NCBI RefSeq assembly: GCF_001625445.1
Contig: NZ_LWHG01000011.1
Span: 744,001-808,000 of the forward strand
DNA length: 64,000 bases
Source: Haladaptatus sp. R4
Lineage (GTDB): Archaea > Halobacteriota > Halobacteria > Halobacteriales > Haladaptataceae
Direction of reading: 5' to 3'
Shown: piece by piece, positions 173-14,397 of the stretch
Numbering within the stretch: position 1 is the stretch's first letter
Layout of the letters: each line of letters starts with the position of its first letter
Position numbers and translations under genes: made by a program
The notes under the pieces: model-generated
Database searches by the model: none
The model's input: the letters and a program-made list of their open reading frames with translations, nothing else
What the model was told of the DNA's origin: nothing

Positions 173-1189
173 TTAATCGCCCATACTTGGCGCTGGCTGT
201 CCCTCTCGAAGCTGTTGCTTTACGTTCGACACATGGCTTTGACTCATCTTCGCGATATCGCCGATGTCTCCCTGTGAAACATCGAATTTCGGATGTTGGA
301 GTATCCGAGAAATAATGGCATCGCGCTCGTCACGCCGTGCCTCCTCCCGCACTTGCTCGATAATAGCCTGATGCTCCGCCTGTTCGACGTAGCGGTCTGA
401 TCCGTCATCGCCCGGATTTCGGAGACGTTTGCGCTTCTCCTTGGTGAGTGCCCGATACACGGGATTACCCTTGTCGATGTCGGACCATTCGAGTCGCTGG
501 ACCGGCACAGGGTATTTTTTCTTCTCGAATGGGTTGTTCCGCAGGCTGTAAACCCGTGCGAGACCGCGCCTCTGGACCAATATCCAGTAATGCGCCAAAT
601 CGAGAATGTTCTTATCGATGTGATTCGAGGCGGGCATGTTCAGGGTCACATACTTCTGCTCGACCCGGCCCATACTGACGATCTCGCTCATCATCCGGTT
701 AATCTTCGTCATCGCCTCCCGGCTGCCAATCCCGGCCTCCGCTTCGTCCAGGGCTAACGCACTCCCTTGGGGATGGTCGGTATACCCGTTAATCACCTTC
801 TGCGGCACGATAGACGCCTTCTCGGGCGTAAATCCCGCGTCGGTTCGGTCCATTTTCTTACACAAATCAATAGTGAGAACGGTCTTGCCGGTACCCCTGT
901 CGTTGTGATAATCCGAAATCAGTATCAGCAAGTCCTGGCCGTTCTTGACCCGTCGTTCGTAATCCTGCCAGAACGGCGTTGATTCGAACGGCATCCGCTC
1001 GGGTACGTCGGGTTGGATCGAAAGCAACGAGTCGGGCAACGACATGGCCGGAGGGCGCTGTTGGAGTTCCGGTGAGACCTCCTGGAGAGTTGTGGGTTGA
1101 GACGGTGCGAGCGGCGTCACGGGCGACGTAGAAGCTAACTCCCGGTCATGTTCGATGAATTCCGTCACGTCTTGGGTTTCGGCGCTCAT
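173..1189 (-). CDS. P-loop ATPase with C-terminal helix-turn-helix
   Basis: The protein has 338 residues. Residues 1-65 are a low-complexity, proline/threonine/glutamate-rich leader. A Walker A motif (NDRGTGKT, about 96-103) and a Walker B strand ending DEAEAG (about 148-153) define a RecA-type P-loop core. After Walker B comes an Arg/Asn-containing helix and a sensor-like strand (VTLNMPASNHID), as in Zot, HerA/FtsK and VirB4-type motor ATPases. The last 40 residues hold a helix-turn-helix (GDIGDIAKMSQSHVSNVKQ), so the protein may also bind DNA. There is no membrane helix, unlike bacterial Zot/pI. It overlaps the preceding gene by ATGA. Possible roles are DNA packaging or extrusion, or partition. 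The family assignment comes from motifs only. Confidence 0.7.
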   Translation of the reverse strand: MSAETQDVTEFIEHDRELASTSPVTPLAPSQPTTLQEVSPELQQRPPAMSLPDSLLSIQPDVPERMPFESTPFWQDYERRVKNGQDLLILISDYHNDRGTGKTVLTIDLCKKMDRTDAGFTPEKASIVPQKVINGYTDHPQGSALALDEAEAGIGSREAMTKINRMMSEIVSMGRVEQKYVTLNMPASNHIDKNILDLAHYWILVQRRGLARVYSLRNNPFEKKKYPVPVQRLEWSDIDKGNPVYRALTKEKRKRLRNPGDDGSDRYVEQAEHQAIIEQVREEARRDERDAIISRILQHPKFDVSQGDIGDIAKMSQSHVSNVKQQLREGQPAPSMGD

Positions 1190-1797
1190 TCGTCGCTACC
1201 TCCGTCCGCGTGGAATTTGGCCGGTTGCTCTTTCTTGAGGGTGTCCGGGGCGTCATCAAGGTGGCTTTCCGGCACATCGGAGCCGGGTTCGGCGGCGAAC
1301 TCCAATTGAACGATCGCGTCCTGTAGAGCATCGTAGGCGTGAACCGCCATCTCTTTCGGCATATGAATCGGCCGCTCTTCGTCCTGCTCGCTGTTCGGCT
1401 CGCCTAATCGCTCTTCGGTGCTTGGTACATCAACCGACGAGAATCGCCAATTATCGAGCGAATAGAGACCAAACACTCCGATCGGCTGTTCACTGACCGA
1501 CCCATCTTCATGCTTGATCGATCGGGTGCGGAGATTTCCCTCTTCGTCGCGTTCGAGATGCAACGGCTTTTGATTCGCCAATTCGGGAACGTGGGACAGA
1601 TACGGCCGAACTCGGTTGTAGAGGCGCATCACGGCGATGTGAACGCTTTGGAGTGCATCGCGCTGTTGATCGCTTTGGCCGTTTTGGTGGGAGGCGATTA
1701 GCGCGTCGATCGCGTGATCCGCGTCGCGGCGGGCCTCGTGGATGTCGGTTAGTGCGTTTTGGGCGCGAAACGCGGCAATGTCGTGGTCATTCGCCAT
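1186..1797 (-). CDS. Unknown acidic soluble protein, first gene of ATPase operon
   Basis: The ATG at 1,797 gives 203 residues starting MANDHDIAAFRAQNAL. A TTG nine codons upstream (1,824) is possible, but the ATG fits the AT-rich box at 1,842-1,849 better. The protein is acidic and helical in its first half (ARRDADHAIDALIASH, then a Gln/His-rich helix). A short beta-like middle part mentions its own segment PIGVFGLYSLDNWRFS. It ends in an Asp/Glu-rich tail. I see no membrane segment, no cysteine cluster and no known motif. It overlaps the ATPase gene by four bases (ATGA), so the two are translationally coupled, and it may be a partner or adaptor of the ATPase. Confidence 0.65.
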   Translation of the reverse strand: MANDHDIAAFRAQNALTDIHEARRDADHAIDALIASHQNGQSDQQRDALQSVHIAVMRLYNRVRPYLSHVPELANQKPLHLERDEEGNLRTRSIKHEDGSVSEQPIGVFGLYSLDNWRFSSVDVPSTEERLGEPNSEQDEERPIHMPKEMAVHAYDALQDAIVQLEFAAEPGSDVPESHLDDAPDTLKKEQPAKFHADGGSDE

Positions 1798-1830
1798 ATC
1801 TATCGCCACGGTGTCAGAATCCAAAAGGAA

Positions 1831-1890
1831 TGCTTAAACACGATATAATGGTGTTAAACACCGTTCTACTGTGTTTAAGATATATATTTT
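1831..1890. promoter_or_regulatory. Divergent promoter with three TTAAACAC-type half sites
   Basis: The 117 bases between the two divergent operons contain CTTAAACAC (1,833-1,841), GTGTTAAACAC (1,851-1,861), which is one mismatch from a palindrome, and GTGTTTAAG (1,871-1,879). The outer two are reverse complements of one another, centred on the middle copy. The right one runs into a TATA-like stretch (AGATATATATTTT, 1,878-1,890), about 25-35 bases before the ATG at 1,915. The left one neighbours an ATATAAT stretch suited to the minus-strand operon. This is the layout of an operator covering both promoters. A binding protein is not identified; the zinc finger or HTH proteins of the element are candidates. 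Confidence 0.6.
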
Positions 1891-1914: not shown

Positions 1915-2385
1915 ATGTCGGCAACGACAGTCAGCACGACCGAACGGAACGGCAAACCTGAGAACAACCATCCTACGATCGAAGCTCAGTCAAACGACGG
2001 CTTCGTGGCCAATCTCGCCGAGGAACATCTCTCGGAGAAACTCGTCGAAAACATCCGCTATGAAGCGGATATGTACGGCGCCTATCAGACCGAGAAAAGC
2101 GAGGAACTCGCCGCCAAGTACGCGGGCGCTATCGCGAAAACGCCGCTCTCGCTCAATCAGGCACAGGCCGTAATCGGCGGGGCGCTCGGGGTCATGGCAA
2201 CGCTCATGATTGGCGTCGTGGTCTTGGGGAAGATCGACGGCTTCACGGGTGACCTCAACGGTCCGTGGCAGGAGACGGCGAACTCGACTTCAACGCAGTC
2301 ACAACAGACGTTCGACTTCCTGAACCTGGTGCCGTTCCTGATAGTGGCGCTGTTCGTTCTTGGTATCATGGCGAGTCGGATGTAA
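1915..2385 (+). CDS. Unknown membrane protein with two C-terminal helices
   Basis: This is the first gene of the twelve-gene plus-strand operon, 156 residues, with a leaderless-type start about 25 bases from the TATA-like box. Residues 1-75 are hydrophilic (Thr/Asn-rich, then EEHLSEKLVENIRYEAD). Two transmembrane helices follow (about residues 88-108, VIGGALGVMATLMIG, and about 132-152, FLNLVPFLIVALFVLG). They are separated by a 25-residue Gln/Ser/Thr-rich loop that would lie outside if the N-terminus is inside. There is no signal peptide. I do not recognise a family. As first gene of a putative virion or appendage operon it could be a structural membrane protein. Confidence 0.75.
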   Translation: MSATTVSTTERNGKPENNHPTIEAQSNDGFVANLAEEHLSEKLVENIRYEADMYGAYQTEKSEELAAKYAGAIAKTPLSLNQAQAVIGGALGVMATLMIGVVVLGKIDGFTGDLNGPWQETANSTSTQSQQTFDFLNLVPFLIVALFVLGIMASRM

Positions 2386-2440: not shown

Positions 2441-2662
2441 ATGATTCGTGGACTTGCAGCAGCGATTGGAGTGCTCTTGCTCCTCTACGCCTTCGTTCCA
2501 GCGGCATCGACGGCCACGGACGCCGAAATCAGCAATCAATCCGCGACACACATGGACGAGTTCGCGCTCTCGCTTGCAAGCCTCACGAACGGCCTGGGGT
2601 CGCTCGTGCCGGTCATCGCGGGCCTCGTGGTCCTGATTGTGTTCTTCAAAGCATCCACCTAA
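2441..2662 (+). CDS. Small secreted single-helix protein, candidate filament coat protein
   Basis: The ATG at 2,441 gives 73 residues. An upstream in-frame extension exists but lacks coding character and would bury the signal peptide. Residues 1-25 form a signal peptide (MIRGLAAAIGVLLLL, ending near PAASTA). The predicted mature chain is about 48 residues: an acidic, amphipathic N-terminal half (TDAEISNQ, MDEFALSLASL), one membrane helix (about 54-69, LVPVIAGLVVLIVFF) and a four-residue tail with lysine. This length, order and charge pattern is that of inovirus major coat proteins such as M13 pVIII, although the tail has only one lysine. Archaeal pilins instead carry a short positive leader before a hydrophobic N-terminus, which is absent here. 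The coat role is inferred from architecture alone. Confidence 0.75.
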   Translation: MIRGLAAAIGVLLLLYAFVPAASTATDAEISNQSATHMDEFALSLASLTNGLGSLVPVIAGLVVLIVFFKAST

Positions 2663-2664
2663 CC

Positions 2665-2994
2665 ATGCTCATACAACTTTACCTCACCCTGGTTGTACTG
2701 GCGTTTCTCGCGTCGTATCACGCGATTAGCCGCCAAGATACGTACAAAAGCATCGCTGAGGAAACGCTCGCCTGCGCGGTCGGAATCTTCGGGTTCGGCC
2801 TCCTGGCGATTGCCTCCTACAATATCGAAATCGTGTCGCAGGGAAGTATCGTCACGACCACAAACGAGTATATCTCGCTGTTGTGGGTGGCGATGGCGCT
2901 TCTGAACGTCGTGTATCTCGTCGTGACGATTCTCGACGACCTCGCCGATGCGGGGAGTAACACGATGGGCGGCATGATTGGAGGGAACCGATGA
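2665..2994 (+). CDS. Unknown three-helix membrane protein
   Basis: The protein has 109 residues and begins three bases after the preceding stop. Three hydrophobic segments are visible: about 2-18 (LIQLYLTLVVLAFLASY), about 36-56 (LACAVGIFGFGLLAIAS) and about 71-92 (ISLLWVAMALLNVVYLVV). A short glycine/asparagine-rich tail follows. It overlaps the next gene by ATGA, so the small secreted protein, this protein and the following soluble protein are likely made together. No family is recognised. In filamentous-virus gene maps this position often holds small membrane proteins of assembly or the particle ends, but the sequence itself does not show that. Confidence 0.7.
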   Translation: MLIQLYLTLVVLAFLASYHAISRQDTYKSIAEETLACAVGIFGFGLLAIASYNIEIVSQGSIVTTTNEYISLLWVAMALLNVVYLVVTILDDLADAGSNTMGGMIGGNR

Positions 2995-3554
2995 GTTCGC
3001 CCGCGAGCGCACCGAGTGGGCCGAGTGGTCCCAGTGGACGCTCACCGTCGCGAAATGGTGATTCAGCATCCTCCGGGGGTATCGATCAGAAGACGCTCCA
3101 GAAAATCCTCTCGGGCTACGGGACCGATTCGGACGCCGATTATCTCGCGACCGTCGTGAAATCGAAAGTCGGCGCGAAGTACCTCCGCGTGATGAAACCC
3201 GAATTCGACCGCGCGAACGTGCTCGCCAACCGCTCGGACGCTGAGACATACGAGGCGAGGTGGTTGATTCGGCTCCGCACGAACGCCTATCTCCACGAAC
3301 ATCCCCCAGAAGGGTCGAAGATGTCCGGCTCGTTCCGGAGGCTCGTCTATGGGTCGGACAAAAAGGCGCTGTCGCCGGGTGAGGTGCGTGAAATCATGGC
3401 GATAGAACAGGTCTTGTTGGCCCGAGTCACGCAGTCGCGGAATATGGAACAGCAACGGATTATCAAGGAAATGCGCTCGGAGCAGTCGCTCACGCGTGAA
3501 GATTCACGGGCGACGGGCGGTATCGGCGCGAAAATCAAACAAGCATTCAAATAA
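2991..3554 (+). CDS. Unknown basic soluble protein with Pro/Ser/Gly-rich N-terminus
   Basis: The protein has 187 residues and overlaps the preceding gene by four bases. Residues 1-30 are a low-complexity Pro/Ser/Gly tract (SGPSGPSGRSPS). Residues 30-175 are helical and rich in Lys and Arg, with stretches such as TLQKILSGYGTD and RNMEQQRIIKEMRSEQS, and it ends in a basic helix (GAKIKQAFK). No membrane helix, signal or metal site is seen. The net charge is unusual beside the acidic chromosomal proteins, and suggests nucleic acid or membrane-surface contact. I recognise no family. As the only small soluble product in this membrane-protein operon, it could be a cytoplasmic assembly factor or a DNA-associated structural protein. 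Confidence 0.65.
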   Translation: MSSPASAPSGPSGPSGRSPSRNGDSASSGGIDQKTLQKILSGYGTDSDADYLATVVKSKVGAKYLRVMKPEFDRANVLANRSDAETYEARWLIRLRTNAYLHEHPPEGSKMSGSFRRLVYGSDKKALSPGEVREIMAIEQVLLARVTQSRNMEQQRIIKEMRSEQSLTREDSRATGGIGAKIKQAFK

Positions 3555-3556
3555 CC

Positions 3557-4633
3557 ATGTTCGATGACATACCCAAACTCAAAGCAAGTCCCACCGCGAA
3601 GGTGTGGGAAATCGTCTGCAAACCGATGTGGCTCTTCGCCGTCCTCCTCCAAGGAACGACCGCGATCCACTTCGATGCCAACGGGATCGAATTCAAAAAC
3701 GCCACGCGGATCGACGACCCTGACGGCGTGCTCGTAGACGGCGAGTTCATCCCGGCAGACGGGCCAGGGTCGTTCTACCGGCTCTATAACACCGATTTCG
3801 TGATTACGGTCGGTGATATGACCGAACTCCTCACACCGGGCGCACTCGCTGACCTCTCGCAGGTTGATGACGCCGTGGTCGCAGATGGCGGCATCGTCAC
3901 GGCGGGCGACGGAATTCAGCTTGTCGTACCAACGAACGGGCGCTCTCTCGGGGCGCTCCTCGCGAAACCGATTTGGTTCGCGGCGCTCTCCATACAGGGC
4001 GCGACCGCCATCCAGATCGACGAGAACCGGCGACTCTCGTTCAAGAAAGCGAGCCGCGAGCGCACGCCTCAGAATGGCTACGTCGTTGACGACGAGTTCA
4101 AACGAGCGGACGGGACAGGCGCGGTGTTCACAAAATACGGGTCGGACGTCGTGCTCTCGCTCGAAGGGTGGGAATCGCTATGGAACCCGGCGACGCCTGA
4201 AATCCTCCGGGCGAAAGACGTGGCCGAAACGAACGGCGAGCAGATCGGCGCGAACGACGGAGAGAAAACCGTCGTCGAGTGTCGGCAGACGACGGCCGTC
4301 AACGTCGATCGTCTTGCCGAGTATCCGCCGTTTTCGATGCTCGACGGGACGAGTACGCGTCAACAGATGAACTCGGCGTATGAAGCGCGCTCGAAATACA
4401 AGGACGGTTCGACACTCGGGAAGATTCTCGCGATCCTGACGGCGTTCATGCTCGGCGCGATTAGTCCACGCTTGAACGGGGCCGTCAGTGGCGGCAGCGG
4501 CGGCGGCGGGAGCGGCTTCTCGATGCCGATGCCGTATCTGGCACCCCCACCGATGGACCTCTCGATGCCAGTAATGCACCTGTCCACGTTCCACCTGAGC
4601 AATGTCGCGATAGTCATGCAGGGGATGATGTGA
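3557..4633 (+). CDS. Unknown protein with internal duplication and C-terminal membrane helix
   Basis: The protein has 358 residues. It contains two tandem copies of a domain of about 90 residues: roughly 8-105 and 120-220. Both copies share a start of the type KPxW, then QGxTAI, a Val-Asp-Asp/Gly-Glu-Phe stretch, and a final WxP/TP element. Each therefore appears to be one beta-rich unit. After a linker, a hydrophobic segment (about 285-302, ILAILTAFMLGAIS) probably spans the membrane. The C-terminus is Gly/Ser- then Met/Pro-rich (SMPMPYLAPPP). There is no signal peptide, so the duplicated part may be cytoplasmic. No family is recognised. The gene lies 2 bases after its upstream neighbour. 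Confidence 0.7.
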   Translation: MFDDIPKLKASPTAKVWEIVCKPMWLFAVLLQGTTAIHFDANGIEFKNATRIDDPDGVLVDGEFIPADGPGSFYRLYNTDFVITVGDMTELLTPGALADLSQVDDAVVADGGIVTAGDGIQLVVPTNGRSLGALLAKPIWFAALSIQGATAIQIDENRRLSFKKASRERTPQNGYVVDDEFKRADGTGAVFTKYGSDVVLSLEGWESLWNPATPEILRAKDVAETNGEQIGANDGEKTVVECRQTTAVNVDRLAEYPPFSMLDGTSTRQQMNSAYEARSKYKDGSTLGKILAILTAFMLGAISPRLNGAVSGGSGGGGSGFSMPMPYLAPPPMDLSMPVMHLSTFHLSNVAIVMQGMM

Positions 4634-4634
4634 G

Positions 4635-7378
4635 ATGCGAATGGATGCAGACGGAACCGCTCGCGACGGGCGGTATCCGACCGATGAGACGGACGACACC
4701 GAGAAGACGGACGAAACGACCAACTCCGACCGATACAACCGCCATTACAACCAGAAACAGGAGCAGATCAAAGAGGGAAGCGACCCCGGCAGTACGGACA
4801 CTCAACAAGCGACGGAACCACAGACGACGGCACCGATACGGACACCGGCACCGATACGGACAGTGGGCGCTATGACCACCGCTACGGGAACGGGAAATCG
4901 GAGCAGATCAAAGAGGGAAGCGACCCCGGCAGTACGGACGACTCAACAAGCGACGGAACCACAGACGACGGCACCAACCAACCGCCGGGCCTCACGCCGA
5001 CCTCTCCCGAGGAAAAAGAGCAATCACTCGGTCCGGCACCCCACCCGAACTGGCACGATACGACGCCGTCGCCCGGTGCCACGCCTAACGTGGTGTTTCG
5101 AGATGATTCTACGACGACGGTGGACGACAATCTAAATCTCAACGATGAGAATGTCCAAACGGCCGTTTCGAACGCTCGCAACGAGTTCGAAGCCGAGTAT
5201 CCCGGCCTGGAATCGAACGACTTTCAGATTGTCGTGAGCGGCGCAGCGGCCCACGTCGAACTCACCGAGAGCGGCAAACGCGAACTCACGGCTCGACAGA
5301 CGCGTGAGAACGTCAAAGAGGAGACGGGCGCGGAATCCGTCCAGGTGTGGTTTTCGGACGACAAAGTCCACGCCAAACCGATCTTTGGAGACGAGCCGGA
5401 CGAACTCCAAACGCCGGATGGCAAGTACCCGATGACCACGGGCGAAGGTGGCGGCCCCACAGTCGGAACGAAGGAGTTCGCCCGCGATTACGCGGAGGCA
5501 ACCCTGGAACGCCATATCGGTCGCAATGTCACGGTCCAGTCGATCGATGACGACGGCCATGTAAACGCGATCGTTAGCGGCTCGCGATACGACTACTCGC
5601 CGCAGAAAAAGGCGCGAGCGGTGGAGTACGATGTTGAGCACCAGCCACAGCAAACGGGTTCCTCGCGCTACACCGGGCCGGGACGAATCCATGAGATGCT
5701 GCTGGAACGCGAAATCGAATCACAGCATCCGGATGTGGACGTGAATGTCTATCGGGATGCGAGTGGGTCGGTGAACGTCGAAACGCTCGGCCGAGAGGAA
5801 CAGTTTGGAGATATCAAACTCACCGTTCCAGGGACGAACAAGCGCGTTGAGTCCTATCTCCGCGAAGGGAGCAATACGATTCAGCACGGGATTTCGGGTG
5901 TTGCGAGCGGTCTCTTCGACGAGGGTGGCGTTGCATCGGATTCGATCATTGCCGACGGTCTCCGGGCGACCGGGCATGATACCGCTGCCAACGAGTTCGA
6001 GCATGGGATTCGCTCGTTTGGGAAGGGACTGGTTGAAGGTGGTGGCGCGATCGCCGACGTTCCTGGCGTGGTCCTGGGCCTGAAAGAAGCCGGGGAATTT
6101 GCGGCCTATGGCGGGTCTGAAATCCTCTCGGGCGATTACGAGGATTTCAAATCGCAGACGGAAACCGCACTTGTCGCCGCGGGCAGTCAGGCGATCGCCT
6201 ACGGTCAGAAAAACCCGTTCGGCGCGGCGGGGATGGTTGTCGGGTCGCTCGGCGGGAGTTCGACACTCATGAATGGGGCCGAACGAATCTCGCCGCGACT
6301 CGGGACCGCTGCTCGGTGGTCGATTCAACCCGGCGAAGAACTCGCCGGGTCGTTTGGCAGTCGTGTGACGCGGACCGTTGCCGGAGACCGCGCCGCGGAC
6401 ACGCTGTTCCCTGGCGGTGAACCCATCTTCATGAGCGAGGAGACCGCCATCCGGGCGGGCAAGCGGGCGAAGGCCGGAGTTAGCGACACGCTCACACTTG
6501 ATGACGCAACGGTCGTGCGGCTCCGGTCCGGATTCGCGGACGAACGCGGGCAAGTTCAGATGCAAATCCAACGTGAACGCCCCTCGACGACCGTTGAGGA
6601 AGAGACGCCAACCAACGATGTGCGTGAGGTGACGCGTGCCGATTTCGAGGAGGAGGAAGCGCAATCGGTCTATGGAGTCGGGCGCGACGATCTTAATGAG
6701 CGACTGGCTGAGATGCGCTCGACCGTCCCCCGGAGCGATCTACGCGCGTCGGAGACGACCATCTCGACGGGGATGGGCGACGTGTTCGACGTGTGGCAAC
6801 GCAAGCGCGAGGTTGGTTCGGCGTTCGATACCGATCGGTTCCAAACGACGCGCGCACGCCGTGCGTTTGAATCGGATTTCGAATCGACGGAACCCGCCGG
6901 ATTCGAGACGGAGACGACCCAACGCCAACGCTTTCGAACGGAGCTCCGAACCGACCAATTGGTCGGACAGACGCAAGGGGTGAGTTCCGACGTGGGGACA
7001 CATCTCGCGACGGATGTCGAGTCGGACCTCACGACCGATGTAGTGACGGGCCTGGATTCTGAGATTGGTGTTGAAGCGGAAACGCTGTTTGAGTCTGAAT
7101 TAGCATCCGAGTCCGACCTCTCCACGGAATTCGAGTACGAGTCAGACTTTGCATCGGAATTCGAGTACGAGTCTGAGTCTGAACTCTCCACGGAATTCGA
7201 ATACGAGTCGGAATTTGAATCGGAATTCGAGCAAGAAACCGAACAGGAAGCGGAGTGGACGCTCCCGAAGAATCCATCGGATACCGACCAGGACGCCGGA
7301 AGCGACTGGTCGGAATGGTCGAAACGCTATGAGAATGAAATTGCGTCGAGTGAGGAGGTGTTAGGATGGGAGTTCTAA
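4635..7378 (+). CDS. Large acidic repeat-containing protein (one frame change near 4,800)
   Basis: Corrected for a missing base near 4,800, the gene encodes about 914 residues, the longest of the element. The first 150 residues are Asp/Thr-rich and contain a 75-base DNA repeat whose second copy (4,900-4,975) has one base more. The second copy shows where the base was lost and restores the frame. Residues 150-370 look like alternating alpha/beta domains. A Gly/Ala-rich hydrophobic part follows (GKGLVEGGGAIADVPG to AAGMVVGSLGGSS). The C-terminus has tandem Glu/Phe/Tyr/Ser repeats of the type EFEYES (DNA about 7,080-7,250) and ends in Trp-rich acidic residues. No known domain is recognised. It could be an internal scaffold, tape-measure-like or effector protein. 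Confidence 0.7.
4760..4975 (+). repeat. 75/76-base direct repeat inside the large acidic protein gene
   Basis: Copy 1 runs from 4,760 to 4,834 and copy 2 from 4,900 to 4,975. The two are identical except that copy 2 has an extra G after AGTACGGAC (position 4,940). In copy 2 the downstream reading frame is used (STDDSTSDGTTDDG). In copy 1 the same residues appear only if that G is restored. The repeat encodes an Asp/Ser/Thr/Gly-rich linker segment. Confidence 0.85.
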
Positions 7379-7653
7379 CCCGCTTCCGACGCGATACCGG
7401 CGGGTCGGGCTTTCACATCATCATCTTCTTCGTCTTCTTAATCGGCGTCTCGATCGTCATCGCGACGCTTTCCACGCCGATGCAGAAAGCAAGAGACCAC
7501 AGTGCCAACGTGACGGCCGGGACAGAATACGCGGGGGACGCCGCGACGATGCGCGCCCGGACGTGGGACGCCTTCAGCGCGCTCCCACTCGTGGCGCTCG
7601 GGATGGGTTTCCTCTTCGTGATTGCGATGGCCCTCTTACGGAGTTCGAGGTGA
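7366..7653 (+). CDS. Unknown two-helix membrane protein
   Basis: The protein has 95 residues and its start overlaps the end of the large acidic protein gene by 13 bases. A short basic N-terminus (MGVLTRFRRD) precedes a helix at about 15-35 (FHIIIFFVFLIGVSIVI). A 35-residue polar loop with Thr/Ala/Gly follows, then a second helix at about 71-90 (LPLVALGMGFLFVIA) and a basic tail (LLRSSR). Both ends would be cytoplasmic with the loop outside. This resembles the general plan of small pilus- or virion-assembly membrane proteins, but no family is recognised. The overlap makes translational coupling likely. Confidence 0.65.
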   Translation: MGVLTRFRRDTGGSGFHIIIFFVFLIGVSIVIATLSTPMQKARDHSANVTAGTEYAGDAATMRARTWDAFSALPLVALGMGFLFVIAMALLRSSR

Positions 7654-7660
7654 TTCGAAG

Positions 7661-7936
7661 ATGGTGAACCCACTCAAACCCTTCGTGGTGCTCGCGTTCA
7701 CGATCTTCGCGGTCATGCTCTTCTCGATGATCGGCCCGGCGCTGCTCGGCCCGCTCGGGCACCTGGCGAAGACCTCGGACGGGTCGGACGGCCAGGGCTT
7801 TTCGGTGTCGAATAAGACGATCGACCAGGGCGCGCATATCGCCTTAGTTGATGTGCCGTCGTTGACGATCGCCGGGATCGCCGTGTGGGCGTTGCTCGCG
7901 CTGTTAGTCCTACTCGCGTATTCGGGGGTGATCTGA
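7661..7936 (+). CDS. Unknown two-helix membrane protein
   Basis: Start at the ATG at 7,661 (MVNPLKPFVV) gives 91 residues. An upstream extension in frame overlaps the previous gene and reads as non-coding. Helix 1 is at about residues 7-27 (FVVLAFTIFAVMLFS) and helix 2 at about 65-86 (LTIAGIAVWALLALLVL), joined by an external loop with Asp/Ser/Gly. The topology and size are like those of the preceding gene product, and the two may be a pair. The stop codon overlaps the ATG of the LamG protein gene by one base. Confidence 0.65.
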   Translation: MVNPLKPFVVLAFTIFAVMLFSMIGPALLGPLGHLAKTSDGSDGQGFSVSNKTIDQGAHIALVDVPSLTIAGIAVWALLALLVLLAYSGVI

Positions 7937-10417
7937 TGCGTCGCGCCGCAATCGTGGTCTTTGCCCTGGCGGCAACGTATCTGGCGGTCTCCGTCGCGCC
8001 AGTGAGTGCGGCCTCGGCAGGGCTGGCGGTCGGCAGTCGGCACACGACAACGAGTGATTTCGCGGCGGGCACCCTCGTTGATACCACCGCGGAAAATGAC
8101 TCGGTGGTCTTTACCGGTAGTTCGGTGTCGAAGCCAACTCCGGCACATGCCTGGAACTTCGAGGCCGGGAGCGGCACCACGGCCACGGACTCGGTTGGGT
8201 CGGCCGATGGATCGATCTCCGGGGCCACTTGGTCGTCTGATAGCCCCTCCGGATCGTACTCGCTCGCATTTGATGGGGCCTCGTCGAAGGTTGACCAACC
8301 GGGCGTGACTGATGTTGGCGATACGTTTACGTTGGAAGCGCGGTTTAAATCTGCGTCTGATGTGCAAAGCGACAGTTACGCGATTGTGGCAATCAACGGC
8401 CACCAAGGAGGGCACCAGAATTTTAAGGTCATCCTCCAAGATGACGGCTCCGGCGGGTTACGTGCCAATATCGGTAGTGGGTCGTCGAAAGTGAAGGTCG
8501 GTCACTTCGATTATCAGGCGAACACATGGTATCATGCGTTTGTAACATATGACGGCACCACGTTGAAATTCTACGTCAATGGGGAGCTAGTCGGCCAAAA
8601 GGATGCCTCGATCTCGACCTATACCACCTCGGCGTTTACTACCGGCTATGGTGTTTCGGACCTCGATTCCGCATCCGATTATTGGGAGGGCAAAATAGAC
8701 GCGGTACAACTCTATGATTCGGCACTCTCCGCGGGCGAAGTGACCGGAGAAGGCACGGGAGAATACACCTCGACGACGCATACTGCAGGCAATGTGAAAA
8801 GGGGGTGGGCGAATCTCTCGCTCACGAATACGACCGCGGCGGTCGAATGGCAGGGTTATGATGGCAATGCATGGCAGACGGTCAATCAGAGTTCGCACGC
8901 AGTGACCGGCAATTACACTGCTAACCTCTCGGGCGCTGCTTATTCACAGTGGCGCGTACAAGTGTCGTTCACCGCGACGGGCGAGAACGCGACAGGCATC
9001 CTCGCCGACGAAGGGGTGTTAATCCAACCCGAACCCCCAACGTTCACCGGCGGCGCATCCCCCGCGAACGGCTCGAATGCGATCGGTTCGAAAATCACGT
9101 TCTCCATTGGTGTCGATGATCCCGATTTCACCGGCAGTCTCAGACACCCTTACCGCAACCTTCCGCGTGAATGGGTTGGTGGTCGGCACCGATACCACCT
9201 CGTCGGCGGGCGTCGTCTCGACCGAGGTGAGTGGCCTGGATGGCGGCCCACACTCATGGTCAGTGACTCTCTCCGACTCATATGGCTATTCGGTGACATC
9301 GGCGACCCGAACTTTCTCCTCGCCGTTTGTGCTCCATATCTACGACGGCGCAAACAACTCCGAACTCCTCAAACAAGAGGTGAACCTCACAGCCAGCGGG
9401 ATTGCGGTGTCGTCGTCGTACCACATGGAAACGACCGTCACAAATGGCACGGTCGCACTCTCACAATTCCCTGAAGAAAGCATTTACCTCCGGTTGAACA
9501 CCACCGGGTACCGCGCGCGGCAACTCATGCTGGTCAATCCATTCGCAACGAGTAACCGCTATACCGTGTTGTATCCCGAAAACTCCTCATCGACCTTCAA
9601 CCAGTGTTTCAGCCTCGATAACCAAGGCGCAGGCTTCGCACCTGATCGCTCCTGGCTGCTCGTGCGCGCGCACTTCGACGGCGACTGGCGGACCGTAGCA
9701 GGCGGTTACTTCGGCCCAACCAACCGGCTGTGTGTCGATTTGCAAGACCAAACTGAGTATCGCCTCGTCGTGCAAGATAACGACGATCGGCGTTCACTCG
9801 GCGGCTACGTCGCCGAACAAGCGTTTGGCAACCAAGTGATTCCGCTCCCGGTCAAAGGCTTTCAGCTGTCGCTCGACCGCGGGGACACGTATCGATGGGA
9901 GGCCAGCGCGTCGAAAACGGACTCGGGGGGGCAAATCATCTTCAAGTTTGATAGCCGGGAGACCACCGCGAAAAACCTCGACGTGCGGGTGTACGAACAG
10001 GGTAACGAGTCGAATCAGTTAGACGCGGCTAGCGTCCCTGGCACGATCGACCAAAATTCAATGTCCTTCAACCTCACGGAGGATCAAACCGCAACACGAT
10101 GGGTCGTCGCGTGGAACGCCACCGTTGACGGCGCACCCGAACACGGTCAGTCGATCGTCTCGGCCGAACTCGGCGGTGCGGGCGTTGATCTCGGCCTCTC
10201 CGACGAAATGCAAAACGTCGCCATCGGCGGCTCGGTCATCCTCGTCGGAGGCTTGTTCGGTGCCGTCTCCGCGCCGATCGGCGCCGTCGTACTCGCCGGA
10301 TACGGCGGGCTGTTGTTCCTGCTCGGCTTGCTCGATATATCGAGTGTCGCGCTCTTTGCCGCGCTCGGGATCGCGGCCGTTGGCTTTGCGGCCTCCCACT
10401 TCGGAGGTGCGCGCTGA
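7936..10417 (+). CDS. Secreted LamG-domain surface protein with C-terminal membrane helices (one frame change near 9,136)
   Basis: Residues 1-25 are a signal peptide (MRRAAIVVFALAATYL, ending VSA). Residues about 70-270 form a LamG/concanavalin-like jelly roll (AWNFEAGSGTTATDS, WYHAFVTYDGTTLKFYVNG, KIDAVQLYDSALS). Ig-like beta domains follow. The frame changes at about 9,136: one extra base separates DDPDFTG from SDTLTATFRVNGL, and both sides belong to the same Ig-like fold. About 826 residues result. The last 80 residues contain three or four hydrophobic helices (GGSVILVGGLFGAVS, IAAVGFAASHFGG), so the ectodomain is anchored in the membrane. LamG domains bind glycans, so a receptor-binding or adhesion role is plausible, for example as tip or spike protein. 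The frame break may be an assembly error. Confidence 0.8.
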
Positions 10418-10773
10418 TGCGGGCCACAAATCTCGTCATCGGCCTCTCGTGCCTGCTCGCGACCGTGACGCTCATGAATGCCGCGCTCGGTCCGGCGCTC
10501 GGCATCAATCTCGTTACCGGCGAGCAGCACTCGGTGGACCACACCAAGAAAAACCTCACGAGCGACGTGGATACCGGCATCACCGACCAGGGGCGGCTCT
10601 CGCCACTCACGGCCGCGAAACAATTCGTCTCGATGATAACTCATCTCACGAGTTCGTCGAGCATCCTCTACAACCTGGGAGTGCCTGCCGCCATCGCCAA
10701 CTGGCTGACCGGACCGATGGTTTTCGTGATGGCGCTCGGGTTAGTGGCGCTCGTTATCCGCACGAGGCTCTAA
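10417..10773 (+). CDS. Unknown membrane protein with signal-like N-terminus
   Basis: The protein has 118 residues and its ATG overlaps the stop of the LamG gene. The N-terminus (about 5-25, LVIGLSCLLATVTLMNAAL) is a signal peptide or helix. A polar stretch of about 60 residues follows (Asp/Thr/Ser, then a helix with HLTSSSSILYNLG), and a final helix covers about 93-113 (MVFVMALGLVALVI) before an Arg-rich end (RTRL). An outward-facing middle part is expected. No family is recognised. Coupling to the LamG gene suggests that it escorts or anchors the LamG protein. Confidence 0.65.
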   Translation: MRATNLVIGLSCLLATVTLMNAALGPALGINLVTGEQHSVDHTKKNLTSDVDTGITDQGRLSPLTAAKQFVSMITHLTSSSSILYNLGVPAAIANWLTGPMVFVMALGLVALVIRTRL

Positions 10774-10774
10774 C

Positions 10775-11089
10775 ATGCTCGGCAATATCCTTCTCGGCAT
10801 CGGTGCTTGTGACGCCTCGAACTTCACGAGTGGGTCGTGGATGCAGGGCGTTATCTGTCCGTTCCAACAAACACTCGGGCCGGTGTTCGTGATCTTCGTC
10901 GGCGTGACGGTGTTCGCGGGCCTCGCGATCTACACCCGAAGCATGACCATTCCGGCCATTGTGTCCATCCTCCTCGTGGGGATGCTCGCGCCGGTCCTGC
11001 CGGTCTTGGGCGCGTGGTTGCTCATGCGCTACGTCGTTATCGTGGCGGCTGTCCTCCTGTTCCTGCTCTATCTAGCGGTGAAAGGATGA
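10775..11089 (+). CDS. Unknown three-helix membrane protein with N-terminal cysteines
   Basis: The protein has 104 residues and starts one base after the preceding stop. The first 30 residues contain two cysteines (GACDASN and VICPFQQ) that could form an external disulfide. Three helices follow at about 35-52 (LGPVFVIFVGVTVFAG), 58-78 (IPAIVSILLVGMLAP) and 82-102 (LMRYVVIVAAVLLFLL). Its end overlaps the next start codon (ATGA), so it is coupled to the metalloprotease-like gene. No family is recognised. Confidence 0.65.
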   Translation: MLGNILLGIGACDASNFTSGSWMQGVICPFQQTLGPVFVIFVGVTVFAGLAIYTRSMTIPAIVSILLVGMLAPVLPVLGAWLLMRYVVIVAAVLLFLLYLAVKG

Positions 11090-11711
11090 CGTCCGACCTC
11101 TCGCCGGAGCAGTTAACCCGCGTGTTCGCTTGCGGCATCGGTGGCCTCGAAGCGGGATTGATAGTCAATACCGGGGCACGCCTCTCACTCACGCCGACGG
11201 TCTGGCGGTCGGTGCTCGCCGCGGTCGGTCTGGGGGTTCTGCTCGTGACTGTCGCGGGCGTCCCGCTCGTCCTCGCGCTCCTCTCGCTTCGTGCGCGCGG
11301 TGTCCTGCCGGAGCGAGGGACCTCGCGCGGAGTGTGGGCGTCGGTGTGGGCACCGGCGAATCTCGCGCACGAAGCGACGCATGCGCTCGTGGCGCTCGTG
11401 CTCGGCGTCGAGTTCGATATGGTCCGGCGTGACGATGGGCGACTCGGGATTGACCTCGCGATTGATGAGACGGTGCCTGTCTGGGGCGTCGTGCTGGCGT
11501 CACTCGCGCGACACTCGTCGGGGGTGTCCTTGGCGCGGTGTTGCTCCCGTGGATTCTGGGGGCACTGTCGCCCGCTGTGGGCGTCGGGAGTGCGGTGGGG
11601 CGGCTCGTCGTTGGGATGTCTCTCGTGCGCTTTGGGTGGCCGTCGCGAGCGGACCTTGCGTTTCCAGCGTTCGCGGTCCGATACGTGGTCGCGAAGCGCG
11701 TCGCGGCGTGA
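11086..11711 (+). CDS. Membrane metalloprotease-like protein with HEATH motif (one frame change near 11,508)
   Basis: The ATG overlaps the preceding stop. Residues 40-65 form a membrane helix (AAVGLGVLLVTVAGVPLVLALL). At about 102-106 the sequence AHEATHALVALVLG holds an HExxH zinc-protease motif in a hydrophobic helix, as in site-2-protease/M50 and related membrane zincins. Near 11,508 the frame changes by minus one. In the other frame the protein continues as two helices (ATLVGGVLGAVLLPW, VGRLVVGMSLVRFG) to a stop at 11,711, giving about 208 residues. Both parts look coding, so the break is probably a missing base. A second metal-binding motif typical of M50 is not obvious. It could process a coat or surface protein of the element. 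Confidence 0.6.
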
Positions 11712-12028: not shown

Positions 12029-13732
12029 CTACGGGAGAACGTTACTCACGCGATACGTCGCGACCCCTCCCTTTCCATCCGGACACTCGATGAGTGCCTG
12101 TCTGAATTCGGAGGGTTGGAAGTCGTTGCCCGTCCAGGCCATGAATCCCTGATCAATCACGTCTGGAAGTGACGGGACGCCAAGCGCACGCGCATCGTAG
12201 TCAGTGCGACCGAGCAGCGCCTCAATCTTGATGACGCGATCGGCGTGGACGGCATCGCTTTCGACGATCTCAACGCCATACTTCTGCATCCACTTGCGAA
12301 GGGTGGAACCGACATTTTTGAGGTTGCCATCCGCGAGCCGGAGCATCCTCTCGGTTGCTTTGCGTGCGTATTCGACTTGTCCCTCTGCAACCGCGAAAAT
12401 TTCGCGTAAGTCCTCGTGGACTTTCTGACAGACGAACTCCAGCGTTCCGTTGTTGTTCTCGACGAGTTCGTTTAGACCGGACAGGGCACGGTACACGGTC
12501 GAAACCGACCCGAGTTCGTCGGCCAACGCTTCGTAGTGGGTGGTCCCACCGTCGGCCATGATTCGGTGTAAGGCATCGAGTTCGCGATCGTTGGCATCGG
12601 CGAGTGTGCGCACGAGTGCGCTTCGACGACTCGTCTCCATGTGAGGCGTTGGGTCTTCGGTGAGTTCGGTCGCGCGGTCGCTCGACTCCGGTGTGAAATG
12701 CAGGTCGGGAACGAACACGTTCGGCGCGTCTGGCTCGATCGGGATACCCGCCCAATTGAGGCTGTTAACGAGAAATCCCTCCAGTTCGGAGACGAGCTTA
12801 TTGCGCTCACTCCAGGGCACCGAGCGGCTGTTCAGTTTGAGGTTGTCGTTTTTGTTCTTCCCGAGTCGGAACAAGACCTCATATTTCGGATGTGCGAGGG
12901 CGTCGCCTTCGGCTAAGAGTTCTTCGCTGCGGACGTTCTTCGGGTGGTACCATTCGAGCTTTACGCCGTGCTCCAGGCCGGGGAGTGGTTCAACCGAGTG
13001 GTCTGGGAGTTCGACCTTGTTCTGATAGCCAATCGTTTCGGTGTTGTCTAGATCAAAGCGGATATGAGAGCCTTTCTCGGTCGCATACAACTGTTGCAGT
13101 TTCGAGAAAATCCCATCGCCTTTGCACATCGAATCGGTGAACTGGCGATGAATACGGAGGTATCGCTCGTGTTGGAAGATTCCCGAAATCCAGGGCACTA
13201 CGTCACCCGGTCGGAAGTGGCGGCTACTCCATCGTTCGCCGCACTCGTGGGCGATCGCGCGGCACGTCTCCTGAATGACGGTGATGTACTCGTCGGGTTC
13301 GAGGTTGCTGCCTTGGAGAAGCACCTCCACCCCTTCGGTATAGTCTGATTGGGAGTCGAAGGGCGTCGAAATCTGGTTCCCGCTTTCGACGTGGCGCATG
13401 TTTTTCCAGCGGGGTTTGATCTGCATCGAGACTTTGCGTTGCCCATCGCCGGTCCAGTGGAGATCTAGCTCCCACATTCCCTTATCGGGGTCGCGTGAAT
13501 CCTTGAGACGGGGAGCGATTTTGCCGGTGTGATAGGTGAGCGAGATTTTCGCATCTTCCGGTCGTCCGTCTGGGCCGGTGGGTATCTCGGCGCGGATCGG
13601 TTCGTCGGCACGCGTCCCGCCATCGAGGGAACGAATGAACTTCCCGAGCGTAAAATAGGGAGCGATACTGGGCCAGTAGAGTTTGGCACCGAGTTCGTGG
13701 GGGGCGCTCGCGACGTGATACGGCCGTTTCAT
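12029..13732 (-). CDS. DUF7845/RepA-like replication protein
   Basis: The ATG at 13,732 gives 567 residues and overlaps the stop of the small upstream gene. An ATG eight codons earlier is less likely. The N-terminal half (APHELGAKLYWPSIAPYFTLG, RKVSMQIKPRWKNMRH, then STPFDSQSDYTEGVEVLLQGSN) matches what I recall of the haloarchaeal DUF7845 family, which includes the RepA-type protein of plasmid pHH205/virus SNJ1. Around residues 385-435 is a winged-helix part (ALVRTLADANDRELDALHRI, YEALADELGSVSTVYRALSGL). The C-terminal 100 residues resemble a DNA-binding/primase-associated tail. It is probably the replication initiator of the element. The family name is from memory and not from a search. Confidence 0.7.
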   Translation of the reverse strand: MKRPYHVASAPHELGAKLYWPSIAPYFTLGKFIRSLDGGTRADEPIRAEIPTGPDGRPEDAKISLTYHTGKIAPRLKDSRDPDKGMWELDLHWTGDGQRKVSMQIKPRWKNMRHVESGNQISTPFDSQSDYTEGVEVLLQGSNLEPDEYITVIQETCRAIAHECGERWSSRHFRPGDVVPWISGIFQHERYLRIHRQFTDSMCKGDGIFSKLQQLYATEKGSHIRFDLDNTETIGYQNKVELPDHSVEPLPGLEHGVKLEWYHPKNVRSEELLAEGDALAHPKYEVLFRLGKNKNDNLKLNSRSVPWSERNKLVSELEGFLVNSLNWAGIPIEPDAPNVFVPDLHFTPESSDRATELTEDPTPHMETSRRSALVRTLADANDRELDALHRIMADGGTTHYEALADELGSVSTVYRALSGLNELVENNNGTLEFVCQKVHEDLREIFAVAEGQVEYARKATERMLRLADGNLKNVGSTLRKWMQKYGVEIVESDAVHADRVIKIEALLGRTDYDARALGVPSLPDVIDQGFMAWTGNDFQPSEFRQALIECPDGKGGVATYRVSNVLP

Positions 13733-13863
13733 TGCGGGCCTCCTGTGAGTCCCCACACGAGTTGGCGGGCACAGCGAACGTGATACGCGGCGTTCTCGGG
13801 GTCATCGGTAAAATCGGCCGCGTTGAGATGGCGATCGATCTGCTCGAGGACATCCGCCATCAT
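13729..13863 (-). CDS. 44-residue acidic protein coupled to rep
   Basis: A short frame of 44 residues (MMADVLEQIDRHLNAADF to LVWGLTGGPQ) lies exactly between the zinc-finger gene and rep, with four-base ATGA overlaps on both sides. This tight packing and its amphipathic helical composition support a real gene. It has no cysteines and no membrane helix. A role as a copy-control or rep-associated helper is only a guess from position. Confidence 0.6.
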   Translation of the reverse strand: MMADVLEQIDRHLNAADFTDDPENAAYHVRCARQLVWGLTGGPQ

Positions 13864-14245: not shown

Positions 14246-14397
14246 TGCCCGGGGAGGGCTCCGAACCCTCGATCTCCGCATGTCCCAGATTCGAGACCTG
14301 GCGGGGTCTCTCGGGCGCATGGGAGGCTTCCAAGGCCTGAGCGCCAAATCTCAGAACCCTATGAGTGCGGCGCTATGTCCAGCTAAGCCACCCGGGC
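14246..14397 (-). tRNA. tRNA-Met(CAT), elongator, with intron
   Basis: On the minus strand the ends GCCCGGG and CCCGGGC pair as the acceptor stem, followed by discriminator A at 14,246. The T-arm (GAGGGTTCGGAGCCCTC) and D-arm (GCTTAGCTGGACATAGC) are clear. The anticodon arm CCGCA-CTCATA...A-TGCGG has anticodon CAT and is interrupted after position 37 by an intron of about 76 bases. The intron can form its own paired structure around the splice sites. Elongator tRNA-Met of haloarchaea characteristically carries such an intron; initiator tRNAs begin differently. The 3' end points at the accessory element. Confidence 0.93.

Follow-up and report, generated by a model that had tools for sequence, protein, structure and literature searches.

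The window analysed here is a 64,000-nucleotide stretch of the genome of Haladaptatus sp. R4 (contig NZ_LWHG01000011.1, positions 744,001 to 808,000). It contains an element whose genes are arranged in two directions: leftward from approximately position 1,800 are the genes for a 203-amino acid (aa) conserved protein (1186..1797, - strand) and a P-loop ATPase (173..1189, - strand), and a long rightward series starts at 1,915. The ATPase is of the same kind as BLv25 ORF1 (E 6e-35), His1 gp16 (E 1e-12) and LSV-48N CDS0023 (E 1e-4). G019, a genome from the same family, encodes a homologue (E 1e-26) of the 203-aa protein that is paired with the ATPase, and this protein has an equivalent place in LSV-48N. 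The divergent intergenic region between the two sets of genes (1830..1890) shows inverted repeats, CTTAAACAC...GTGTTTAAG and GGTGTTAAACACC, which are partly kept in Halomarina oriensis (discussed below); these repeats of the divergent promoter region may be an operator.

The rightward series (all + strand) begins with a gene for a 156-aa protein (1915..2385) that has a hydrophilic N-terminal part and two transmembrane (TM) helices, with an N-X-S/T sequon in the loop; it occupies the position of BLv25 ORF2 and is our proposed major capsid protein. Next is the gene for the 73-aa protein P0001 (2441..2662), followed by those for a 109-aa multi-TM protein (2665..2994), a 187-aa conserved soluble protein that serves as the marker of this module (2991..3554), a 358-aa protein with an internal repeat and a C-terminal TM segment (3557..4633), a large low-complexity protein that is probably structural (4635..7378) and two-TM proteins of 95 aa (7366..7653) and 91 aa (7661..7936). 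The spike or tail-fibre protein (7936..10417) has a signal peptide, a LamG domain (PF13385, E 2e-22) and a conserved C-terminal part with a TM segment, and is related to LSV-48N CDS0012 (E 2e-35). Membrane proteins of 118 aa (10417..10773) and 104 aa (10775..11089) follow. Histidine motifs that resemble metalloprotease sites (NLAHEATHAL and LLHEVMHYL) are found in membrane proteins at an equivalent place in two elements (window positions 11090-11700, approximately, and L036:16426-16782).

A Rep-Arvir protein (DUF7845, PF25227; E 5e-68) is encoded at 12029..13756 (- strand) and has a homologue in LSV-48N (E 3e-23). Recent work has demonstrated that the DUF7845 protein Rep-Arvir initiates rolling-circle replication, and LSV-48N is known to encode one (PMC13107129). 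Immediately to the left of the window is a tyrosine recombinase gene (locus L002:14740-16113). A tRNA-Pro gene (14246-14316) adjoins the Rep gene and is a possible integration site, with no matching repeat at the integrase end: we were unable to identify convincing att repeats between that end and the tRNA gene.

When several of the element's proteins were joined into one query and compared with a phage collection, only haloarchaeal spindle viruses were matched: Haloferax LSV-48N (spike, E 2e-29), Halorubrum BLv25 (ATPase, E 6e-23) and His1 (ATPase, E 9e-5). The structural genes of LSV-48N (PP151251.1) are in the same order as those of the window element, with the ATPase pair, the two-TM protein CDS0020, CDS0019 in the place of P0001 and a 3-TM protein, and further on the positions of the 187-aa and 358-aa homologues, the large protein, two small TM proteins and the spike; Rep-Arvir and an integrase are also present. 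Almost every gene of the element is found in G019, with the order kept. Based on the spike, ATPase and Rep matches, the common gene order and the G019 counterpart, the element is identified as a provirus with LSV-48N, a lemon-shaped virus of Haloferax, as a relative. This relationship is distant: identity is 32-34% for the spike and 24% for Rep, and neither the capsid candidates nor the proteins that follow them can be confidently aligned. His1 differs from the element in having PolB and a linear genome.

The copy of the element in the window may be defective. The gene for the large protein is split between two reading frames near 4,790-4,800, inside a tandem repeat, and the spike gene is similarly split near 9,129-9,143; these breaks suggest either a defective or decayed provirus or assembly errors. 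The closest relative found is a provirus of H. oriensis (NZ_WSZK01000004.1), which has the same gene order and is 43% identical in both the capsid candidate and the P0001 homologue. It differs in that its contig covers the element only in part, and it has a larger spike and a larger 762-aa homologue. No relatives were found in IMG/VR scans with four of the element's proteins or in a tblastn search of phages and plasmids with the 358-aa protein.

P0001 (MIRGLAAAIGVLLLLYAFVPAASTATDAEISNQSATHMDEFALSLASLTNGLGSLVPVIAGLVVLIVFFKAST; 73 aa and a stop codon) had been presented in a preliminary description, made from the letters alone, as having the design of a filamentous virus's major coat protein, with the coat role inferred. 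Its existence as a protein is confirmed: a 73-aa homologue is encoded at the equivalent place on the H. oriensis contig (tblastn 46%, E 1.4e-11; 43% over the alignment of the pair), and both proteins begin with M-I-R. Codons differ at 16 of the 26 identical residues, and differences at the three codon positions are 0.53, 0.32 and 0.63, respectively. Since the homologue has the same length and start and the substitutions are of the coding type, P0001 is a real, conserved gene.

The two hydrophobic segments of P0001 comprise residues 5-21 and 52-68. The N-terminus is signal- or TM-like and is followed by an acidic exposed stretch, with all four acidic residues (D27, E29, D39 and E40) located between the hydrophobic segments, and then by a single C-terminal TM segment. 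Past this segment the sole basic residue is K70 (tail FFKAST). A putative cleavage after S-T-A25 would leave 48 residues. The acidic stretch, helix and short lysine-containing tail are present as first described, though this layout is generic and not distinctive, because two or more hydrophobic segments are also found in most of the operon's other small proteins. An archaeal type IV pilin was considered and rejected, in agreement with the preliminary description: the prepilin peptidase site (K/R-G or K/R-A) is not conserved, as the R-G that precedes the hydrophobic stretch of P0001 is replaced by R-T in the protein from H. oriensis.

P0001 had no match among Pfam, NCBIfam or PDB sequences or to the PF25665 (His1_capsid) profile, and no significant match among PHROGs. 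An AlphaFold2 model has two helices (pLDDT 67). Fold searches with this model returned common helical hairpins alone (EsxB, ATP synthase c rings), none of them at a significant E-value; a spindle-virus capsid was absent from the listing, which is uninformative. Profile-profile comparison of the capsid candidates and the proteins encoded after them with those of His1 and BLv25 gave low probabilities, with similar scores for the P0001 pair and the capsid candidate. Because the chains are short and hydrophobic, this method did not discriminate here; both profile comparison and fold prediction fail on short hydrophobic proteins.

Gene order is more informative about the coat. Using a profile of the 187-aa protein (A11), the module was found in 27 of 391 genomes of the class, and 25 elements were tabulated (counts over these 25 are uncorrected for relatedness). 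In every one, a two-TM protein with a hydrophilic N-terminus is followed directly by the protein in the position of P0001 (hereafter, the slot protein) and then, wherever examined, by a multi-TM protein of approximately 100 aa. The two-TM protein is a neighbour of the ATPase pair, a place taken in BLv25 by ORF2, which clearly belongs to the His1 capsid family PF25665 (E 8e-23). Its gene is duplicated in tandem in five elements (L057, L055, L061, L099 and L100), with the copies 68-79% identical. An N-glycosylation sequon is present in 21 of 32 inter-helix loops compared to 10.3 in shuffled sequences (21 was reached in 0 of 2000 shuffles), while the N-terminal parts show no excess (6 of 31 compared to 8.2); these counts ignore the relatedness of the sequences. 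Between the window and H. oriensis, the TM half of the 1915-2385 product is also better conserved than P0001.

These five features (presence in all tabulated elements, ATPase adjacency, tandem pairs, loop sequons and conservation of the TM half) make the 1915-2385 product a better coat candidate than P0001, and from them we infer a capsid role. It has no match to PF25665, and no match exceeded the cut-off in 24 genomes or records; its AlphaFold2 model has a pLDDT of 49. As there is no sequence match, it is proposed as a spindle-virus capsid protein by design and not as a PF25665 member: two TM helices, a glycosylation-prone loop, an ATPase neighbour and, in some elements, a paralogous pair are all present. 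The fusellovirus (SSV1, SSV19) capsid proteins VP1 and VP3 are likewise two-helix proteins that form a paralogous pair and have glycosylation sequons (PMC9608457). They resemble the tandem two-TM proteins of the 1915-2385 type, not P0001, and this likeness is one of design with no sequence match. The BLv25 record (OQ850971.1) has been filed under Caudoviricetes despite the His1-type capsid protein (PF25665) that its ORF2 encodes.

The slot protein exists in two forms: 18 of the 25 elements encode a long form (141-167 aa) and seven a short form (67-97 aa), the latter including P0001 and its H. oriensis homologue. Long forms have a hydrophobic N-terminus, a tail-tube/Ig-like ectodomain of approximately 100 aa and a C-terminal TM segment, so that in most relatives the gene in this position encodes a folded ectodomain, which speaks against the coat role first inferred for P0001. 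Unlike P0001, the LSV-48N slot protein is 143 aa in length and has such a domain, matching the phage tail-tube/Ig-like models NF052337 (E 1.5e-7, below the cut-off of that model) and PHROG 807 (E 8.5e-6).

A profile of the long form, run against 589 sequences, retrieved BLv25 ORF3 (E 6e-6), whose gene directly follows that of the BLv25 capsid protein; because at least 5 of 1000 composition-preserving shuffles of the ectodomain scored as well, the link depends on position no less than on sequence. The same profile had no significant match to His1 gp23, which is encoded after VP21 and a tiny ORF. Both ORF3 and gp23 are similar to the slot proteins in layout (signal, ectodomain, TM segment) and in lying after the capsid gene and before a 3-TM protein, but at approximately 150 aa they are unlike P0001. 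With respect to the short forms, the long-form profile scored G254 at E 0.0012 and P0001 at E 1.2. P0001 has the layout of the family, with an N-terminal hydrophobic segment, an exposed part and a C-terminal TM segment, and lies directly after the capsid candidate. We infer that short and long forms are one family, with a link that is mainly positional. The long form is the commoner, and the ectodomain was presumably lost from the short forms rather than gained. Sequons are found in the exposed stretch of four of the seven short proteins compared to 1.5 in shuffles (4 was reached in 23 of 2000), again without regard to relatedness.

Taken with the identity of the provirus, these results make it probable that the virion of this LSV-48N-like, lemon-shaped provirus contains P0001 as a minor membrane protein that lacks the ectodomain of most of its relatives; its place in the particle is suggested by its gene neighbours and family. 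The gene would probably be transcribed together with the capsid gene directly before it. The first hydrophobic segment of P0001 would direct it to the membrane, being either kept as a first helix or cleaved, and about 25 acidic, probably N-glycosylated residues would be outside. The C-terminal helix would act as an anchor with the short tail inside, the topology predicted for the virion. In the assembled particle, P0001 may take its place alongside the two-helix capsid subunits, either within the shell or at a pole. In most relatives, the tail-tube/Ig-like domain of approximately 100 aa lies between the two helices and would stand out from the virion.

A further step, which we regard as possible but doubtful, is that the slot protein of haloarchaeal lemon-shaped viruses itself has the two-helix capsid plan, sits in the same shell and acts as a port to which exchangeable surface domains are fitted, with only the bare port kept in some lineages, that of P0001 among them. 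One element (G059) encodes an extra slot-family protein (L103:3254-3739) whose C-terminal TM segment is almost a copy of helix 2 in the capsid candidate next to it, as though the two had recombined. Such a helix would fit packing in the same shell and, if the port reading is true, would be a trace of kinship between slot and capsid proteins. G059 apart, the C-terminal helices of slot proteins are not significantly more similar to those of their own capsid candidates than to those of other elements (mean 29.2 compared to 27.4).

It is unlikely that P0001 is instead absent from the particle and works at the membrane of the host cell, serving assembly or release without lysis. Its small size and two hydrophobic segments suit such a role, LSV-48N is shed without lysis (PMC12714723) and the publications examined do not name gp23, the slot product of His1, as one of that virus's structural proteins, but the P0001 gene sits between the capsid candidate and further structural genes, and the long slot forms carry a tail-tube-like domain. 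Slightly less likely again is that the major coat consists of P0001, or that P0001 forms a second major coat in the manner of SSV1 VP3, as an uncleaved 73-residue two-helix hairpin. The His1 capsid protein VP21 is also 73 aa in length with two TM segments, and the two predicted helices and the sequons between the helices of short forms are consistent with this; set against it are the upstream protein, with its constancy, its BLv25-like place beside the ATPase and its VP1/VP3-like tandem pairs, the large ectodomain of 18 slot products and the lack of a PF25665 match for P0001.

In inovirus pVIII, a cluster of basic residues after the TM segment contacts DNA. That P0001 is a pVIII-type major coat of a filamentous virus is highly improbable: its length, signal-like N-terminus, short mature chain, acidic stretch, one helix and short tail fit pVIII loosely, but the tail has one K (one R in the H. 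oriensis homologue) in place of the basic cluster, P0001 matches no coat family and has no sequence match to pVIII, the element lacks the inovirus assembly genes (Zot/pI ATPase, attachment protein), and the ATPase of the element groups with His1 gp16 and BLv25 ORF1 rather than with Zot/pI, its spike and Rep being likewise of lemon-shaped virus types. What stands of the preliminary interpretation is a small viral membrane protein, not a pilin, in a structural-gene operon; the filamentous major coat is not supported, the gene directly upstream being the better fit.

To our knowledge, lemon-shaped particles are found only in archaea, and they are abundant in salt lakes. LSV-48N is described by its authors as the first studied representative of its group, and they saw no resemblance between any of its proteins and a capsid protein already known; they report 13 LSV-48N proteins in the supernatant, and that the most abundant one was spike-like (PMC12714723). 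Our comparison singles out one ATPase-adjacent two-TM gene (CDS0020 in LSV-48N, 1915-2385 in the window) as the capsid gene and the next gene as that of a companion. We therefore propose that CDS0020 (WWZ16978.1) is the LSV-48N capsid protein and CDS0019 (WWZ16977.1) its companion, a type of protein with or without an exposed domain. As far as the publications examined show, this proposal is new, and both parts can be tested directly on LSV-48N, for which a culture exists: the virus is shed by the strain Haloferax Atlit 48N. CDS0019 is annotated in PP151251.1 as a 'major tail protein with Ig-like domain', and its domain match is indeed to tail-tube models; the product is a small membrane-anchored protein that adjoins the capsid candidate.
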